DNA of 26,469 bases, taken from the IMG/VR virus record IMGVR_UViG_3300021963_000565, positions 1-26,469 of that record; one strand, written 5' to 3'. The position numbers and the translations under genes were made by a program. Positions 6,431 to 26,469 of this stretch are shown here, one piece after another (position 1 is the stretch's first letter; every line of letters starts with the position of its first letter). Below the pieces are notes generated by a model that was given only the letters and a program-made list of their open reading frames with translations, had not been told where the DNA came from and searched no databases. Source of the DNA: a virus.

Positions 6431-8329
6431 TTACTTATTCTGTGATAAGTACGTACTTAATGGCACTCCCAAGGAGTCAGCACGTTGAATTGCCTGGGCA
6501 GGCTGTGGGTCATTTGAGATTTGTATTCCTGCACCTTGCAGGATTGTTGAGTTGATTGATTCAGCAATGGCAGATCTGATGGCATCCCCGTTGCTATCTT
6601 TGGTGATAATATTAGAGAAAAACTGGTATGCTTCAAACTGAGTTTTGTCAGCAGCCATGGTTCCAATCTGTTCTGCTAGATTCTTTAAAGTAGATGTCTC
6701 CCCCACTCCAAAGATTATATTGCCCTTGGTCAAGTTTGCTACTTCAGTGGCTAACTGCACAATCATATTATTATATGATATGCTTGAAGAATAGAATGAT
6801 GCAGAATTAGGGAACGATGTTAGTACAGCATTCACTGATGATACTGCAGAACTTATTCCGCTTGGTTCAGGCCAAGTGCTGCCACCTTCTGACACAGTGG
6901 GTCCAGTGGAGATGTAGGTAGTAACTGCGGATTTTAATATAGTCAATGCCGACACCAATCCCGTAATTGGTACGCCTGTGTAATTAGTAACAATTGTCTG
7001 GAAACCTGCAGTATAAGGAATTCCTGCACATGCGCCAAGAAAGTCTTTAACAGTTGCATGACCCACACTACCTGAGCCAGTCACTGAATTAGAATTTAAT
7101 GTAGCAATGGTATTTGCTGTTAATACAGTGGTGGTTGCACCAGGAGCAATGTTCGATGACAAAATAGGAACTTCAATTGAACGCAAGAACTTGGCCATTG
7201 TTGCCCAAGATTCAAATGTTGCCTGTCCGAGAATCTTATGAAAGTATGTGCCCAGGGTACTAAAATCTGTTACACCTATTGCTGACAATCTTGTTAGTAG
7301 TGTATTGTCAATAACCGTAGACAAAGTTAAATAATCATCTAATGTTGTTAATCCACTGGCAATACCATCTAATGCAGTAAATTTTGTTGAGCTAACAATT
7401 GAAGTTAAATCTGCGGCAGTAACTTTTTTATATATACTGTGCATGACGTCAGGACTGGATGCAGTCACAGGAGTATTAATGGTAACGTTTTCTGTGATTG
7501 GAAGTTCAACTGCGCCAACATAAGTTGTGGCTGTTACTGTGTTAGACTGATGATATGAGATCGCTGTACTCGACGGGGGATTAGATAAATCCCCAAGATT
7601 CAATCCGGCTTCTAAGAACAACGTAGTTAACTTATATTTGCCCAAGCCTTGTTTTAGCAAGTTTTGCCCAAATACATAAGGATCAGCAAAGTTTGATAGA
7701 TGTTTGATGTCATACATTGTGCCCCATCCAGCAACAACATCGGCCAACAACGCACCATTAGCACCAATTCCACCAGTGGCCAGGGCCACAGGTCCAGTGA
7801 ATCCAATTCCACTTTGCGAATATGTTTTGTCTTTTAAAATATTAATAGAACTAACAGTTTCAAAGGATTGATTTGCGGCGCCATAGGATGTCATGTACAC
7901 ATTGGCAAATCCTGCAAGGCCATTAGCAAAGGGCAGGCCTGCTTGTACTAAAACTGTGTTGCTTACGCTTGCCGTTCCTGCTTGTCCCGTATAATCATAG
8001 TGATCTAATATTGGAGTCTCGCCACCGCCTACATAAACAGGGACTGCAATATTTCCATAGTAAGAGACATTGCCCGAAGAAACTACAGTATTTCCCGACG
8101 GGTAAAAATCTATTAGAAAAGCCGGAGCAATAACTCCAGTTCCGATCCCCGCAAGCACAGAATATAAAGTTGTGGGTCCAGTACTGGCTGCAGTGAATAT
8201 TTCTTTAACTAACTTAACACTGGCTAAGTTTTGATAAGAAGTTATAGTTGTAGTTAAATCGGGACTTGCGCTTAACCCAAGTCCGTTGATAATTGTTGCC
8301 TGTGCATTTAACTGTAGAGCCGATGCCAT
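6431..8329 (-). CDS. Large virion protein coupled to the PAAR tip (baseplate or tail-tip candidate)
   Basis: 632 residues, rich in Ser, Thr, Ala, Gly and Val with few charges, typical of virion structural proteins. I see no catalytic motif and no signal peptide. The N-terminus reads MASALQLNAQATIINGLG; the C-terminal quarter is more helical (NLAEQIGTMAADKTQFEAYQ, DAIRSAIAESINSTIL). Its ATG overlaps the stop of the PAAR gene by one base (TAATG), so both are made together, which suggests a tail-tip, hub or baseplate part. I recall similarly long proteins beside PAAR genes in marine T4-like phages, without firm naming. Structural role: fairly sure; exact position: inference. Confidence 0.75.
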   Translation of the reverse strand: MASALQLNAQATIINGLGLSASPDLTTTITSYQNLASVKLVKEIFTAASTGPTTLYSVLAGIGTGVIAPAFLIDFYPSGNTVVSSGNVSYYGNIAVPVYVGGGETPILDHYDYTGQAGTASVSNTVLVQAGLPFANGLAGFANVYMTSYGAANQSFETVSSINILKDKTYSQSGIGFTGPVALATGGIGANGALLADVVAGWGTMYDIKHLSNFADPYVFGQNLLKQGLGKYKLTTLFLEAGLNLGDLSNPPSSTAISYHQSNTVTATTYVGAVELPITENVTINTPVTASSPDVMHSIYKKVTAADLTSIVSSTKFTALDGIASGLTTLDDYLTLSTVIDNTLLTRLSAIGVTDFSTLGTYFHKILGQATFESWATMAKFLRSIEVPILSSNIAPGATTTVLTANTIATLNSNSVTGSGSVGHATVKDFLGACAGIPYTAGFQTIVTNYTGVPITGLVSALTILKSAVTTYISTGPTVSEGGSTWPEPSGISSAVSSVNAVLTSFPNSASFYSSSISYNNMIVQLATEVANLTKGNIIFGVGETSTLKNLAEQIGTMAADKTQFEAYQFFSNIITKDSNGDAIRSAIAESINSTILQGAGIQISNDPQPAQAIQRADSLGVPLSTYLSQNK

Positions 8330-8655
8330 TACGGACCTACCATTACTGTGGGATCACCGGGGCCCATTACATAATGAAATCCACAGCTACACAAAGTTGC
8401 TGGGCCAATTCTAGCAATTGGTTTACCCATTACTAAAATGTTGGGTACACCCACTGTTATTTTTGCTGTTGCACAAGCAGGATTGTATCCTGGTAATTTC
8501 GGATTTGTATAATTACCATGCGGTGCAACTATTGCACCAACTGTGGCCACAGGACGACCGTGTGCTAACACCGTGGTTGTTATACTAGCGATAACATTGG
8601 GAGGACCGTATTTGGGATCAACTTTGTCTCCGGTGACAGCAACTGGAAAAGGCAT
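8329..8655 (-). CDS. PAAR-domain tail spike tip protein
   Basis: 108 residues, the usual PAAR length. It begins MPFPVAVTGDKVDPKYGPPN and has paired repeats (VLAHGRPVATVGAIV and ILVMGKPIARIGPATLCSCG), with His32, His47, Cys89/Cys91 and His94 able to bind the structural metal, and a C-terminus GPGDPTVMVGP. PAAR proteins form the sharp cone that caps the membrane-piercing spike of contractile tails (T4 gp5.4). The tight coupling to the 632-residue gene supports a tail-tip location. Confidence 0.88.
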   Translation of the reverse strand: MPFPVAVTGDKVDPKYGPPNVIASITTTVLAHGRPVATVGAIVAPHGNYTNPKLPGYNPACATAKITVGVPNILVMGKPIARIGPATLCSCGFHYVMGPGDPTVMVGP

Positions 8656-11448: not shown

Positions 11449-12099
11449 TTAGTAATTTCCGCTAGCAAGAACAATACGAGCAATGTGTTCAAGGCGTTCT
11501 ATATGTTCATAGGCACGCCACGGACTTGTGTCAATGGCAACAACTCCGTGGCCTTTAATGCCTACAATGTCGTAGGCAATATTACCGGCGTTGTCTAATT
11601 GTAACTGCCGATGACACTGGTCTGCAAGTTCTTGACTGATAGGTGCAACATCGCCTACATTGGGTGCTACTTTGGTATATCGATTCAGTTCTGGAAAGGC
11701 TGCACTCACAGTACTCAAATCAATACCGGCATGCATGGCCGCAATACAGTAAGTGGGATGAACATGTACTACCACACGAACTTCACCAGTGTGCTGTCCC
11801 ATCTCTCGTTGCAAGCCAAAATGTAGTGGTAGTTCTCCACTGGGTTTTAAATTTTTACTAATATCAGTGTACTCTAACTCTTTAGTTGCATGATATCTAG
11901 TTGGTGGTTGACCCCAGTATCCTGTCTCAATACCAATCTTCTTAAACTGATCTGGCTGTAAAGTCTGCTTACGCACACCGCTTGGGGTGATGTAAAAGTG
12001 ATCACGGTCGTGATGTCGTATGCTGACATTGCCATCACGACTAGTAATCCAGTTACGCTTATAAGCGTCTACCATAATATCGCAAATTGTTTCTAACAT
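11449..12099 (-). CDS. Class II aldolase/adducin-family enzyme
   Basis: 216 residues, the usual length. Motifs in order: SRDGNVSIR (20-28), YITPSG (37-41), KPSGELPLH with the likely catalytic Glu89, VHVHPTYC with zinc ligands His112 and His114, and IKGHGVVAID with the third ligand His184. FucA, ribulose-phosphate epimerase-type and methylthioribulose-phosphate dehydratase enzymes share this fold, so the substrate (a sugar phosphate) cannot be fixed from sequence. The zinc site is complete, so activity is likely. Start overlaps the NrdA stop by one base (TAATG). Its place between nrdA and nrdB suggests use of sugar phosphates during nucleotide synthesis, but this is inference. Confidence 0.85.
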   Translation of the reverse strand: MLETICDIMVDAYKRNWITSRDGNVSIRHHDRDHFYITPSGVRKQTLQPDQFKKIGIETGYWGQPPTRYHATKELEYTDISKNLKPSGELPLHFGLQREMGQHTGEVRVVVHVHPTYCIAAMHAGIDLSTVSAAFPELNRYTKVAPNVGDVAPISQELADQCHRQLQLDNAGNIAYDIVGIKGHGVVAIDTSPWRAYEHIERLEHIARIVLASGNY

Positions 12100-16589: not shown

Positions 16590-17579
16590 TTAGACGGGTG
16601 TTAGTTTAAATAGCTTCTTAGGTAAATGCTCTTGTGCAGGAATTAATGTGCTGTCACTGTACATAAATCCACACATATTGCAGGTATTTTCCGGCTCTTT
16701 TTGTCTAGCAAACCAAGCATCAATTTCAGATTCTGTGGCTTCCATGCCAATGGATTCGTATTGACTATAATAGTCGGACCAGTCTTCATCTGACTGTAAG
16801 TTAAATGTGTCTAGTGTTTGATTTAATACTGCCCGGGGCGGACATTTATACAATCTACCCCGATATAACTGTACATAATTCTTAATGTGGCACTCACGAT
16901 GATTTTCCAACTTGGCTGTTTCATTATTGTAATCATGCCAGGGTTTTAGTTCGCTGCCGCGGCCTTGGTAATGGCTAACAAAATGGTCAGCATATTGTCG
17001 GGTAATACTTATTACTGTTAAATTTGCATGTTCACTGGGGGCATTTCTTAGCATTTTATATTCTTTGTGTCCTTTAGAATATGTTGCACTATCTACCCAC
17101 CAAAATTTACGTCGTGGCCACTTTTTAACTGCTGCGTCACAAATCAACGTTGCTAAAGTATCAACATTATATTGTAATAAACTAGAATATGGTTCAGTTA
17201 ATGTATGATGTGTCACGCTTAGACACAAACCGTTGTCTATAAATAATTCAGTGATGTGATCAAACAACTTGTCTAAAAAATAGCCGTTAGTACTCAACCA
17301 AATTGGCATACGAGAGCCGGTCACTGTTGTGGGCCAGGCAGAGGTTACTAGTCTAATCCAATCTCTGAGTTGCGGATGCATCATCGGCTCACCGCCAAAT
17401 AAATGTATTTTTCTTGGTTCTATATATTTTGACCAAAAATTAATTGCATCTGCAGATTCGTTGACATCAACAAGTCCATTGATTTCCCGGTGATTGCTAA
17501 ATGTACAACACCCTTCGCAACTTAGTTGACAACTGCGAATAATTACTACGTCTAAAACATCTACTATGTGCTTTGTCAT
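16590..17579 (-). CDS. Radical SAM enzyme with an auxiliary Cys domain
   Basis: 329 residues. The [4Fe-4S] motif CX3CX2C is at Cys17-Cys21-Cys24 (RSCQLSCEGC), followed by GGEP at 62-65 for SAM binding and WLSTNGY at ~94. The C-terminal part has Cys230, Cys246 and the pair Cys300-Cys303 (ENTCNMCG), which fits a twitch/SPASM-like domain holding one more cluster. Such enzymes often modify peptides or proteins; others act on small molecules. No precursor peptide is seen nearby. The start overlaps the nuclease stop by 4 bases (ATGA). Neighbours are the tail spike and a glycosyltransferase, so a surface or virion modification is a possibility only. It needs Fe-S clusters, and the phage has its own IscU/IscA about 2 kb away. 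Confidence 0.87.
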   Translation of the reverse strand: MTKHIVDVLDVVIIRSCQLSCEGCCTFSNHREINGLVDVNESADAINFWSKYIEPRKIHLFGGEPMMHPQLRDWIRLVTSAWPTTVTGSRMPIWLSTNGYFLDKLFDHITELFIDNGLCLSVTHHTLTEPYSSLLQYNVDTLATLICDAAVKKWPRRKFWWVDSATYSKGHKEYKMLRNAPSEHANLTVISITRQYADHFVSHYQGRGSELKPWHDYNNETAKLENHRECHIKNYVQLYRGRLYKCPPRAVLNQTLDTFNLQSDEDWSDYYSQYESIGMEATESEIDAWFARQKEPENTCNMCGFMYSDSTLIPAQEHLPKKLFKLTPV

Positions 17580-19374: not shown

Positions 19375-19695
19375 CTATACTCTGAAACTTTCACCACATC
19401 CGCAACGATCTCTTTCATTGGGGTTGTTAAATTGAAATCCTTCGTTTAGCCCCTGCCGTACATAATCTATTTCCATGCCCTGCATGTATGCAGAGCTTTT
19501 TGGATCCACAAATAATTTACAACCGTTACAATCTATGCAAATATCTTCTACCTTGGGGTTGTCAACATACTCAAGTACGTAGGCAAGACCCGAACAACCA
19601 GTTGTTTTAACACCTAAACGAATTCCTTGTCCAGATCCACGACGGTGGAGTACTTGTTGTACTTTTTGTGCTGCCTTGGTTGTTATGGATATCAA
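19375..19695 (-). CDS. iscA: A-type iron-sulfur carrier protein with an extra Cys triad
   Basis: 106 residues, like E. coli IscA. Conserved ligands are all present: Cys34 (TTGCSGLAY), Cys98 and Cys100 (DRCGCGESF). Between them E. coli has EDIVFEDKGVKVVVD, while this protein has DICIDCNGCKLFVD: extra Cys53, Cys56 and Cys59 (CX2CX2C). A-type carriers bind [2Fe-2S] or [4Fe-4S] clusters and pass them to client enzymes; the triad might bind another metal or cluster, not known from the family. Start overlaps the IscU stop by 4 bases (ATGA). No HscA/HscB/ferredoxin/IscS genes are seen, so host partners are needed. Confidence 0.9.
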   Translation of the reverse strand: MISITTKAAQKVQQVLHRRGSGQGIRLGVKTTGCSGLAYVLEYVDNPKVEDICIDCNGCKLFVDPKSSAYMQGMEIDYVRQGLNEGFQFNNPNERDRCGCGESFRV

Positions 19696-20072
19696 TGCTT
19701 TTTCCTATAATCCTCAACTGCGGCTTTGATGGCATCTTCTGCTAATATACTACAGTGGATTTTGACTGGTGGTAGTGCTAGCTCTTCGGCGATTTCGGAG
19801 TTTTTAATTTCTCCGGCTCGGTTGATGTGCATGCCTTTGACCCACTCCGTAATGAGGCTCGAACTCGCGATAGCCGATCCGCAGCCATACGTTTTAAATT
19901 TCGCATCTGTAATAATACCTGTATCATGATCAACCTTTATTTGTAGTTTCATTACGTCACCGCAAGCAGGTGCGCCAACCATACCAGTACCAATATCAGT
20001 ATCACTCTTGTCAAAAGATCCGACATTCCTGGGATTTTCATAGTGATCAATTACTTTGTTTGAATAGGCCAT
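19692..20072 (-). CDS. iscU: Iron-sulfur scaffold protein
   Basis: 126 residues, close to E. coli IscU (128). Cluster ligands Cys37 (PACGDVM, with Asp39), Cys64 (YGCGSAI) and Cys107 (KIHCSIL) are all kept. The LPPVK motif (100-104) that docks the chaperone HscA is also kept, so this phage protein could be unloaded by the host HscA/HscB. It receives sulfur from IscS, which is not in the window. Start overlaps the stop of the His-rich gene by one base (TAATG). Together with IscA it could raise Fe-S supply during infection, e.g. for the radical SAM enzyme at 16590. Confidence 0.94.
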   Translation of the reverse strand: MAYSNKVIDHYENPRNVGSFDKSDTDIGTGMVGAPACGDVMKLQIKVDHDTGIITDAKFKTYGCGSAIASSSLITEWVKGMHINRAGEIKNSEIAEELALPPVKIHCSILAEDAIKAAVEDYRKKH

Positions 20073-20487: not shown

Positions 20488-20919
20488 TTATTTGGCTGCC
20501 GCTTTGGCTGCCATTTTGGATACAATTTTACTTGGGTCACCTGCAGGTGCTGATCTTGCACCCAGTGGGTCAGTATCATCTACTGTGTTTTCCGGCGGAG
20601 ACAAATAAATGTACTTCTCTCCAGTTTTTGGGTCATCTTTGATGTCTTTGATCAATTCTTTAACTGCTCCATTGGAGGACATTGCGTCATCTAATGCGGC
20701 AAAGTTAAATGCTTCGTTTCCGGGAATATCACGTACACGTTCAATAACTGTGTTGACTTTAACACGGGGAGTGACCGCACCACTTTGCTCGGCTTGGTGA
20801 CGCAATAATTCTAGAGCGGTGATCAAAGCGGCATCGCCGCGAGCATCTGCTTCGTCTTCGATTGATTCATTGGGGGTACCAAATACATCACTCTCTAGAA
20901 TAATTTCATGAATACGCAT
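20488..20919 (-). CDS. Structural or head-core type protein, 143 residues
   Basis: The protein begins MRIHEIILESDVFGTPNESIEDEADARGDAALITALELL and is acidic, helical and Ala/Asp-rich, with no catalytic motif. The N-terminus IILE-S fits the T4 prohead protease rule (L/I-x-E before A/G/S). Its ATG lies one base after the stop of the gene upstream. Content and neighbour suggest a scaffold or internal head protein; it may instead be a virion protein of unknown place. Confidence 0.7.
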   Translation of the reverse strand: MRIHEIILESDVFGTPNESIEDEADARGDAALITALELLRHQAEQSGAVTPRVKVNTVIERVRDIPGNEAFNFAALDDAMSSNGAVKELIKDIKDDPKTGEKYIYLSPPENTVDDTDPLGARSAPAGDPSKIVSKMAAKAAAK

Positions 20920-24133: not shown

Positions 24134-24141
24134 TATTTATC
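24134..24141 (-). promoter_or_regulatory. Degenerate late-type box GATAAATA
   Basis: GATAAATA, 41 bases ahead of the 109-residue gene's ATG, overlapping the stop of the gene upstream. It differs from TATAAATA at the first base, so support is moderate. Confidence 0.35.
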
Positions 24142-25246
24142 ATTTATTGAAATGTGCGCCCCCAAATACACCTCGATTTACTAGTTTTATTAGGCCTGCC
24201 CCCGGTGTATTTGACACAAATCCTTCGCCACCGGGCTGTCCGTTGATACTCTGCGAAAACCCTGCAACCTGCTTTTCTAGCTGATCTGCAATAGAATTCT
24301 TTAGCTGATACATGGCATTCCACACATCTGCCAGTGCTTGATATCCTTCTGCGTTTACAGTTAGATAACCTGTTTCCCCATCGCCGACTAGCTTTTTAAC
24401 TGTACCGGGCTTGGTATTACTTTCGGGGCTGGACAACCAAGTATCCAATGGATCTTTTGTTTGTCCTGTTATTTGCTTGTTAAAATATGTTTGGATTTTA
24501 GCTTTGCTTACGCCATCTAATCCTGCTAAGAACTGCTCTGCTCTAGGACCTTCAGCGGCCACTGCACGTTTGGCGTTCTTCAAAATTCTAGTGGGTTCAT
24601 TTAATGTAAAGGGCTTGGATTTTTGTCCTGCGGGCATGCCCATTGGGCCTATCACTGCTACATCACCTGCATTTGTTAATCCTGATACACCATCCCAAGG
24701 AGCATTACCTTTGGAGTGTACTACAATCATAGCAACTTTGCCTTCCATTGCAGCACCCATTGGACTTTTAACAGGAACTGTGTATGTAACTGTAGTAGGC
24801 TTGAATACAAATGCCTTGCCATTAGGCTTCATTTCTGCACCCAGGGCCATTAAATCGCCTTTGAATACTGCCTGCTCTGTGACTGCGGAACGTAGGCCTT
24901 CCCAGATTAACTCAATCTTGGGATATAAATCGGGTCTGGGTTGGCGACTGGCCTTGACCTGCGTGTCATACTTTTGCCAATCAGCGGGACTGCGGGCATA
25001 AAACCCTGCAGGATACATATACTTGTCACTGACAAAGAACTCGCCGCCGGGTGTGTATCCAAAGAACAAGGCAATACCACCGTCCCACTTAATACTGGTA
25101 CTTGCAGGATTTTTTATAACTTGTTCTATACCTGTCAGGTATTTGTTAACCTCTGACAACCCACCAAAGATAGCATCCTCAGGATGAGGAATACGTGGGC
25201 CAGCACCTTCAGCTTCTAACAATACACTGATAAAATCTAAATTCAT
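24140..25246 (-). CDS. Ligase-like phage protein with KxDG motif
   Basis: 368 residues. The region TSIKWDGGIALFFGY (51-64) contains KWDG (53-56), matching motif I (KxDG) of ATP-dependent nucleic acid ligases and capping enzymes, where Lys takes the nucleotide. FKGDLM (128-133) lies where motif III is expected, and FKPTTVTYTVP (148-158) recalls a block I associate with the phage family DUF6267, which I think this is. The remaining part (~200-368) is unlike ligases. The N-terminus MNLDFISVLLE-AEG fits the T4 prohead protease rule. It is translated with the nucleotidyltransferase upstream (4-base ATGA overlap). Ligase activity is inferred; the family may have kept only the fold. Confidence 0.65.
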   Translation of the reverse strand: MNLDFISVLLEAEGAGPRIPHPEDAIFGGLSEVNKYLTGIEQVIKNPASTSIKWDGGIALFFGYTPGGEFFVSDKYMYPAGFYARSPADWQKYDTQVKASRQPRPDLYPKIELIWEGLRSAVTEQAVFKGDLMALGAEMKPNGKAFVFKPTTVTYTVPVKSPMGAAMEGKVAMIVVHSKGNAPWDGVSGLTNAGDVAVIGPMGMPAGQKSKPFTLNEPTRILKNAKRAVAAEGPRAEQFLAGLDGVSKAKIQTYFNKQITGQTKDPLDTWLSSPESNTKPGTVKKLVGDGETGYLTVNAEGYQALADVWNAMYQLKNSIADQLEKQVAGFSQSINGQPGGEGFVSNTPGAGLIKLVNRGVFGGAHFNK

Positions 25247-26016
25247 AGATTATGTCCCATCTTACGGAACCATGCGGCTGTACCCGGCGTATTATCTTCG
25301 GGTAATGTTAACATACCCTTGGCTTGATCTTGTTTAGCCTGTGCTAGTTTACCTTCGCGGTCCGGGTCATTTTGTAATGCGGCTATAACTGTACTGACAG
25401 AATTTAAATCTGCGGCCTTGGCCTTGGGGTTTAGTAATATTTTAGCGGCATCATTGCGATTATCTGCAACAACTTCATTGTTGTCACGGCGCATTACTGT
25501 ACCACTAAACGCATCAACTTTAAGTCCAAGGAATTTAGCGACACTACTTAATAACATGAATAAGTGCGAGCCTTTAAAATTAGGATCATCGTACATGCCA
25601 CGTGGACCATGCTGGTGCCAGTCGGCAACTTTCTTGGCATTGGGAATAATCATTAAATCAACTTGACCAAAACGTTGTTTACCATCACGTTTGGCTACAT
25701 AAGGAACATCAACGTGAACGTTACGTCCCATTACCTTGACACCGTAGCCCTTGGCTTGATAGTATTGAGCCAATGCTTGTTTGGCTTGCTTTTCGTCAGC
25801 AACATCAAAGTTTTTAATTGTAGTAGCTTGATCTAGAAATAAATCAATGTCTCCAGATTCAACTTTATATCCAGCAGAGCCGATGTCGGTTATTACCTGT
25901 GTTTGTAGTGTGCTGGGCAAGTCACGCTTGACTGCGCCAACTACTGTGGGAACATCTTCTTGGGCTACCGGCTCTGTGTTGTCAAATACATTACCACCTT
26001 CGTATAGATACATCAT
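25243..26016 (-). CDS. Pol-beta-type nucleotidyltransferase
   Basis: 257 residues. IGSAGYKVESGDIDLFLD (45-62) gives the Gly46-Ser47 and Asp56-x-Asp58 signature, and FGQVDLMII (116-124) supplies the third carboxylate, Asp120: a complete metal-binding set of the Pol-beta superfamily (poly(A)/CCA-type, antibiotic and protein nucleotidyltransferases). The N-terminus MMYLYE-GGNVFDN resembles phage proteins starting LYEGGNVF and also fits L-x-E/G. The C-terminal half is helical without recognised domains. Its ATG overlaps the stop of the gene upstream (TAATG), and its end overlaps the KxDG gene. Substrate unknown: RNA end, protein or small molecule. Confidence 0.75.
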   Translation of the reverse strand: MMYLYEGGNVFDNTEPVAQEDVPTVVGAVKRDLPSTLQTQVITDIGSAGYKVESGDIDLFLDQATTIKNFDVADEKQAKQALAQYYQAKGYGVKVMGRNVHVDVPYVAKRDGKQRFGQVDLMIIPNAKKVADWHQHGPRGMYDDPNFKGSHLFMLLSSVAKFLGLKVDAFSGTVMRRDNNEVVADNRNDAAKILLNPKAKAADLNSVSTVIAALQNDPDREGKLAQAKQDQAKGMLTLPEDNTPGTAAWFRKMGHNL

Positions 26017-26469
26017 TAAGTTTGATCCAATGCTTGATTTAAAAATGCTGCTACAGTTACATTAGCTGGTCTTCCATTTTGATCGAGCCAATTGCCAGTG
26101 TCAGTTAATGAGAATATATTCTTTTTATATCTAGCCAATGTGGGACTGTTTCCAGTAGCTGGTTTGATCTGTACCCCACCAATATCTTGCCAACCGCCCG
26201 GGGCTGTTGGTGTGGGTGCAGGTGGTGCTGTTGTAGCGGGCACACTCGGTGCCGGTGTTCCGTTAGAAGATGCTTGAGGTGTCATATATGGATTAGGGCG
26301 GCCAGTCTGCTGTGAAAGTGTTGGCGGCACAGTAGCAGGACCGGGTGTTCCACTTTGCGCCGTTGGTTGTGGCACAGTAGCAGGTGAAGTTCCGGCAGTT
26401 CCACTCGGCGATCTTGTTGCATTCTGCTGTGCCAACAGGGCCATACCTACGCCAGTTAGAAAGTCGATA
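26016..26469 (-). CDS. Pro/Thr-rich structural protein (5' end outside window)
   Basis: The frame is open to the right edge (IDFLTGVG precedes the first Met at 26444), so the gene is probably longer. Residues from 26444 are rich in Pro, Thr, Ala and Gln (TSPATVPQPTAQSGTPGPAT; SVPATTAPPAPTPTAPG), a disordered linker, followed by a folded-looking C-terminus (GGWQDIGGVQIKPATGN ... YKKNIFSLTDTGNWLDQNGRP). Likely virion-associated by context. Function not recognised. Confidence 0.65.
   Translation of the reverse strand, partial: IDFLTGVGMALLAQQNATRSPSGTAGTSPATVPQPTAQSGTPGPATVPPTLSQQTGRPNPYMTPQASSNGTPAPSVPATTAPPAPTPTAPGGWQDIGGVQIKPATGNSPTLARYKKNIFSLTDTGNWLDQNGRPANVTVAAFLNQALDQT

Follow-up and report, generated by a model that had tools for sequence, protein, structure and literature searches.

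Covalent nucleotidyltransferases carry KxDG in motif I, a glutamate in motif III, EGhh in motif IV and hhKhK, with two lysines, in motif V. In phage T4, Rnl1 and Pnkp repair RNAs that have been cut by host anticodon nucleases. According to one report, the Pol X of African swine fever virus lacks DNA-binding domains that are conserved in its homologues (PMC5330486), and another report assigns a repair DNA ligase to the same virus (PMC6344480). The internal head proteins of T4 bear propeptides of 10-19 residues; these direct the proteins to the prohead, and gp21 removes them by cleavage after L/I-x-E (PMC9026906). In this study, we describe two adjacent genes in the virus record IMGVR_UViG_3300021963_000565, a stretch of 26,469 bases that we refer to as the window. 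The Pol-beta-type gene is called NT1 and the following gene, which encodes a KWDG motif, is called LIG. We favour, with slightly less than even confidence, the reading that NT1 and LIG, encoded at the 3′ end of a primase-helicase operon, process nucleic-acid ends as a pair and are perhaps delivered by the capsid.

NT1 (25243..26016; all positions in the window are given for the minus strand) encodes 257 amino acids, and LIG (24140..25246) encodes 368 amino acids. An earlier note made on this DNA had placed two genes with a 4-base overlap here, and both open reading frames were found at these positions; the overlap, read from the sequence, is the ATGA at 25243..25246, which joins the stop codon of NT1 to the start codon of LIG. 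The carriers of the pair are a family of large aquatic phages. Scans of viral contigs returned seven relatives of LIG and 228 of NT1; 80 of the latter were retained. Among 68 distinct NT1 loci, LIG lies downstream on the same strand in 61, seven end too early to be judged, and none is without LIG. The conservation of the gene pair, which the earlier note had proposed to check, is thus observed in 61 of the 61 distinct viral loci that have enough downstream sequence. In 23 of these 61 loci, a further gene of approximately 338 codons, NT2, sits between NT1 and LIG (for example, L020:2620-3636, 338 amino acids). NT2 contains a second Pol-beta-like motif set, GSS...GDID...VQ[IV]D, in which G60, S61, D79, D81 and D140 are invariant (10 sequences), and it returned no Pfam or PHROG family and no PDB sequence match. 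Relatives of NT1 were absent from 84,980 bacterial and archaeal genomes with the patterns used, and therefore no host-gene origin of NT1 is visible with these patterns. When isolated phages were searched with tblastn, NT1 had no match and the LIG of the window had marginal matches only.

The Pol-beta motif GS...DxD...D that had been noticed in the first protein consists of GSAGYKVESGDID at residues 46-58 of NT1 (25843..25881), with the catalytic D56 and D58, and of D120 in QVDLMI (25657..25659), which is a third catalytic-type aspartate. G46, S47, D56, D58 and D120 are invariant in 66 of 66 distinct sequences. Searches of Pfam, PHROGs and NCBIfam assigned NT1 to no family, and it matched neither a PDB sequence nor a Pol X model; because of this lack of a match at the sequence level we call it Pol X-like. 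An AlphaFold2 model of NT1 was built on a 35-row alignment (predicted local distance difference test score, pLDDT, 82) and compared with the PDB by Foldseek. The best match was Pol lambda (4k4g, E 8.8e-7, TMq 0.47-0.51); 69 PDB matches had E values up to 0.001, and all 50 that were listed are family X polymerases, with Pol lambda followed by Pol mu, TdT and Pol beta at template modelling (TM) scores of about 0.4-0.5. As modelled, NT1 has a fold that resembles family X DNA polymerases in their palm and thumb, and in common with Pol lambda, Pol mu, Pol beta and TdT it has a palm with GS...DxD...D and a following domain. Because only about 45 residues precede the GS motif, the 8-kDa domain and the HhH fingers domain are absent from NT1, and in this respect it is similar to the minimal Pol X of African swine fever virus as described above. 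NT1 differs from the family X polymerases in that it has no sequence-family match, is encoded by phages and has a partner that is not a canonical DNA ligase.

LIG belongs over its full length to the Pfam family DUF6267 (PF19782; 84 bits compared with a gathering cut-off of 27, E 1.7e-23), and the match covers residues 20-367 of the protein and positions 5-373 of the 376 in the model. LIG also matches phrog_455. DUF6267 corresponds to PHROG 455 and to T4-like gene cluster 71 of cyanophages, and both DUF6267 and phrog_455 are families of unknown function; DUF6267 is named in no paper of the literature that we searched. Sequence searches of the PDB, Pfam, PHROGs and NCBIfam with LIG returned only DUF6267/phrog_455, and the rest were at chance level. 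All 29 members of the LIG family in one alignment match DUF6267, and relatives of this family occur in 466 phage records, mostly from cyanophages. The DUF6267 proteins of isolated phages were reached only with more divergent DUF6267 queries, and that of S-PM2 is apparently frameshifted in AJ630128.

The two motifs that the earlier note had read in the second protein are both present. KWDG occupies residues 53-56 (25079..25090) at the motif I position, and its invariant K53, in a KxDG context as in covalent nucleotidyltransferases, is the candidate nucleotidyl-lysine; FKGDLM occupies residues 128-133 (24848..24865) at the motif III position. Beyond that note, the C-terminal region contains EGFV at residues 341-344 (24215..24226), which agrees with EGhh at the motif IV position and has an invariant G342, and IKLV at the motif V position with K354 (24185..24187); the membership in DUF6267 and a leader-like N-terminus are likewise additions to it. 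None of the 51 distinct LIG sequences departs from K53, D55, G56, G130, D131, E341 or K354. Furthermore, K53, D55, G56, D131, H177, E341 and K354 were still invariant after the addition of seven distant DUF6267 proteins of 19-24% identity, which came from Kyanoviridae and Straboviridae and included pelagiphage, methylophage and Vibrio phage members; thus, the motif residues are common to LIG and to the DUF6267 proteins of these two families. Variation of the lysine or aspartate residues among homologues had been named in advance as grounds for abandoning the proposal, and it was not seen in the 51 LIG and 66 NT1 sequences. Because the motif residues are invariant in relatives, the motifs of LIG and NT1 are not products of chance.

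The structural model of LIG (pLDDT 91.6, predicted TM score 0.86; residues 1-17 disordered, with pLDDT below 50) runs in the order of a strand with KWDG, two strands, two helices, a strand with GD, further strands, a helical insertion of 106 residues, a strand with EGFV and a strand with K354. This is the strand and helix order of the covalent nucleotidyltransferase core. The insertion (residues 219-324; 24275..24592) comprises six helices, assigned by DSSP on the model, and lies between the motif IIIa and motif IV positions. LIG shares the motif order I-III-IV-V and the 13-residue spacing of motifs IV and V with T4 Rnl1 and the ATP-dependent RNA ligases, and its EG[FY]V...K[IL] pattern is in register with T4 Rnl1. 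However, LIG differs from RNA ligases in that its helical part is inserted in the core and is not a C-terminal helical domain, and in that it has an aspartate in motif III and one lysine in motif V. When the LIG model was compared with the PDB, the best match was an archaeal RNA ligase (5d1o) with a nonsignificant E value of 0.32, and ligases made up 16 of the first 50 matches, from about five distinct proteins. Among the viral structures of BFVD, the first matches were DUF6267-like proteins, and the named matches that followed were mostly RNA and DNA ligases (10), with RNA ligases the most frequent and an RNA ligase the best (E 7.5e-3). Profile-profile comparisons gave no significant match of LIG to relatives of T4 Rnl1, to relatives of T4 DNA ligase or to the DNA ligases that the phages themselves encode; the one alignment in register was that of the isolated motif IV-V profile of LIG with motifs IV-V of T4 Rnl1, at a pairwise P of 0.003 that is uncorrected. 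The weak Pfam matches of 29 DUF6267 members, considered up to an E value of 10, included no ligase family. The coupled nucleotidyltransferase and ligase-like pair that had been proposed therefore holds for the Pol-beta fold, the ligase-like motifs and the conserved gene pair, and is less firmly borne out for the ligase core. The suggested structure comparison, similarly, succeeded for NT1 with its Pol X matches and succeeded in part for LIG, where the order of secondary structure fits the core but no ligase match is significant.

The earlier note had also considered the pair to be located in a structural cluster rather than a replication cluster, and this view did not hold. In relatives on longer contigs, the gene order is primase (phrog_47, E 6e-25), DnaB-like helicase (phrog_19, E 6e-71), an 82-residue protein that is called virion structural in PHROG, a variable and often leader-bearing protein, NT1, NT2 where present, LIG and then structural genes. 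The structural impression is an edge effect, because the window ends just before the helicase. The gene upstream of NT1 (26016..26444, neighbour cluster 20) is cut by the window edge; its relatives are variable and often have a leader such as MKIKDVINEA. Pelagibacter phage HTVC008M and Methylophilales phage Melnitz likewise have a single gene between DnaB helicase and DUF6267, and Vibrio phage EniLVp02 has this arrangement with one additional tiny open reading frame. In many cyanophages, the gene after DUF6267 encodes a cytidylyltransferase; the members of the window lineage differ from known DUF6267 proteins in their Pol-beta-like partner as well as in their leader. As a separate matter, LIG was considered as the replicative DNA ligase of the phage, and this role was ruled out because an ATP-dependent DNA ligase (PF01068) is encoded separately in seven of the seven large relatives tested. 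Neither a PF09414 RNA ligase nor a NAD-type ligase was found in seven large relatives.

The N-terminus of LIG, MNLDFISVLLE (residues 1-11; 25214..25246), resembles a capsid-targeting leader with a possible prohead-protease site after E11, where the next residue is A. As in the capsid-targeting sequences of T4 (IPI-III and Alt) that are processed by gp21, the disordered leader of LIG contains such a triplet (L-L-E, residues 9-11), and a T4-type S77 prohead protease is encoded by three large relatives, the window itself being a 26-kb fragment. In the gene order of two relatives, this protease adjoins a T4-like capsid protein whose conserved body is preceded by LAE or LSE. The [LI]xE pattern occurs in the N-terminal segment before a conserved H-x-E block in 30 of 30 relatives, compared with 8.9 expected from shuffles, although these sequences are related and not independent. 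The leader is present in HTVC008M (MYNDLLVE), Melnitz (MLTLINFSKYITE) and C48C1 (MMLDFKNFITE), and it is absent from the DUF6267 proteins of P-RSM6, S-CAM9, S-RIM8 and EniLVp02, Kyanoviridae and Straboviridae homologues among them. Because it is present in some DUF6267 proteins and absent from others, the leader has the distribution of a separable module. Under the stricter leader pattern M[KR]xx[EDQSH]hhxE[AGST], one large relative has 5 matching proteins out of 444 and another has 3 out of 505, compared with 0.01 expected. In the window, the protein at 20488..20919 (neighbour cluster 11), downstream of LIG, has a conserved leader of the same kind (MRIHEIILE, followed by S). NT2 has one as well (for example, MRIKDIILEGG), and because LIG and, in about a third of the relatives, NT2 have such an N-terminus, entry of these proteins into the prohead is suggested. 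We consider the probability of delivery by the capsid, which is judged separately from the chemistry, to be a little over one half.

Virion proteomes provide related observations. The cytidylyltransferase of S-SM1, whose gene is directly after DUF6267, was detected in virions (PMC3037559), and the cytidylyltransferase of S-CREM2 was also detected in virions, although the authors stated that such virion proteins could be contaminants (PMC10665884). These two proteins start with MKKFSAFLNEA and MKNFSSFLTEA, respectively. In the annotation of the S-CREM2 region that we examined, no DUF6267 gene is recognised, and therefore the S-CREM2 data bear only on the cytidylyltransferase. In one relative, an 800-residue protein encoded directly upstream of NT1 (L037:7602-10004) has the leader MRINSILSEN and endolysin/LysM-like matches, and it is possibly another capsid-delivered protein.

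According to the reading that we favour, NT1 would be a minimal family-X-like nucleotidyltransferase that adds nucleotides to a 3′ end or fills a short gap. LIG, with a divergent covalent nucleotidyltransferase fold, would take up a nucleotide covalently on the lysine K53 and activate a 5′ phosphate so that the end can be sealed. LIG and NT2 would enter the prohead by means of their leaders, lose these leaders to a protease of the T4 gp21 type and be ejected with the DNA, and the ejected proteins could then act at once on the incoming genome or on nucleic acid damaged by the host. In this scheme we infer the adenylation of the lysine, the sealing, the gap filling and the capsid entry.

Several observations weigh against this reading. 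LIG has no significant sequence or structure match to any characterised ligase. The acidic residue at its motif III position is the invariant D131, where glutamate is canonical; at motif V, the second lysine is replaced by an invariant V356; and the protein ends 14 residues after K354, without the C-terminal OB domain of DNA ligases. Because its ligase matches are not significant and because of these three departures, we consider LIG to be ligase-like and not a proven ligase. Moreover, the large relatives already have the separate DNA ligase mentioned above. The partner of DUF6267 varies by lineage, being Pol-beta-like here and a cytidylyltransferase or an unassigned protein elsewhere, and because of this change of partner, end sealing is not the only possible common denominator of the family. 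With regard to delivery, the leader of NT1 has only about five residues, which, unlike that of the T4 proteins, is under the minimum of 10, and no report of a DUF6267 protein in virions was found in the literature that we read.

The alternative that survives best concerns delivery only and is compatible with any enzymatic reading: the leader of LIG is not a targeting signal, and the enzymes act in the cytoplasm with the replisome. The location of the genes in an operon with primase and helicase is consistent with this view, as are the several DUF6267 homologues that have no leader and the very short leader of NT1. However, the [LI]xE leader is found in all 30 sequences of the window lineage and in HTVC008M, Melnitz and C48C1 and is absent elsewhere, as expected of a separable module, and leaders of the same kind are found on many unrelated neighbour proteins. 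We regard cytoplasmic action as a substantial possibility that nevertheless falls short of an even chance.

A second alternative is RNA repair, in which LIG would be an RNA-ligase-like enzyme and NT1 and NT2 would be 3′-end nucleotidyltransferases, and together they would mend tRNAs or other RNAs after cleavage by anticodon nucleases of the host. We take this rival seriously because, among viral structures, the named neighbours of LIG are most often RNA ligases and because a DNA ligase is already present in seven of seven large relatives, such that a second one is not obviously needed. The best PDB match is also an RNA ligase, T4 Rnl1 gives the best alignment of the motif IV-V segment, and the lack of an OB domain distinguishes LIG from DNA ligases. 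On the other hand, the resemblance of NT1 is to family X DNA polymerases rather than to enzymes that add CCA or poly(A), the genes adjacent to the pair include no recognised polynucleotide kinase, and the operon is a DNA replication operon. On balance, we find RNA repair rather doubtful.

Less probable still is the nucleotidylation of something other than a nucleic-acid end, such as a protein, a NAD-related cofactor or a small molecule. In this case, DUF6267 would be a lysine-nucleotidylating protein, and its partner could be any nucleotidyltransferase, either of the Pol-beta type or of the NMNAT/cytidylyltransferase type. The cytidylyltransferase genes directly after DUF6267 in many cyanophages make this possible, and the authors who described the cyanophage cytidylyltransferase called it an NMNAT homologue (PMC10665884). 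In addition, the LIG model is matched along its length by the BFVD entries A0A6J5L7B8, A0A6J7XLZ9 and A0A0M6VVW4, which have 591-601 amino acids; two carry the name 'cytidyltransferase-like'. As judged from the lengths and names of the entries only, these look like DUF6267-cytidylyltransferase fusions. However, the partners in the window lineage are Pol X-like, and the known relatives of such proteins have DNA as their substrate; the location next to DnaB helicase is also common across phage families, and we consider this alternative unlikely. The weakest alternative, that the two proteins have no catalytic function and are internal parts of the head or tail, is consistent with the leader-like N-terminus of LIG and the structural genes downstream, but every catalytic-type residue is invariant in 51 LIG and 66 NT1 sequences, which a structural role does not need, and we consider it very improbable.

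A more specific version of the end-processing reading is an injected end-repair kit, in which a Pol X-like polymerase is packaged together with DUF6267, both with T4-type leaders; DUF6267 would be a ligase of a new class that has a helical domain inside the catalytic core. We consider this version, taken in full, to be improbable at present, although less so than the last two alternatives. If it were true, phages would inject nucleic-acid repair enzymes with their genomes, a parallel to those large DNA viruses of eukaryotes that have a repair polymerase and a ligase, and DUF6267 would represent a previously unrecognised branch of covalent nucleotidyltransferases that is very common in marine T4-like phages. 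Regardless of this version, DUF6267, which has had no assigned function, gains a chemistry that can be tested (a lysyl-nucleotide at KWDG), a partner with a polymerase fold in one lineage and a capsid route that can also be tested.

Other genes accompany these loci. The gene directly upstream of DUF6267 in the pelagiphage, the methylophage and cyanophages encodes the pattern TD[hydrophobic]...LSVK/SLK-G, which by eye is like the core of PD-(D/E)xK nucleases. Genes of this appearance are located at L099:3923-4981, L100:3884-4969, L237:1254-2477 and L238:1233-2477; two of them have a leader (NLSEA and FLSEA), and the two that were tested had no meaningful Pfam match. In the window, a homologue of the UV-damage endonuclease UvdE (PF03851, E 2e-31) at 1397-2416 is another DNA repair gene of the phage. 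A PAAR-motif protein (PF05488, E 4.6e-10) at 8329-8655 is likely a tail-tip spike, and a class II aldolase-type protein (PF00596) and a radical-SAM/Fer4-type protein (PF13353) are encoded at 11449-12099 and 16590-17579, respectively. An A-type Fe-S carrier (PF01521, E 9e-21) adjoins a NifU/IscU-like scaffold (PF01592, E 3e-54) at 19375-20072, and both genes recur in related viral contigs (clusters 17 and 19).

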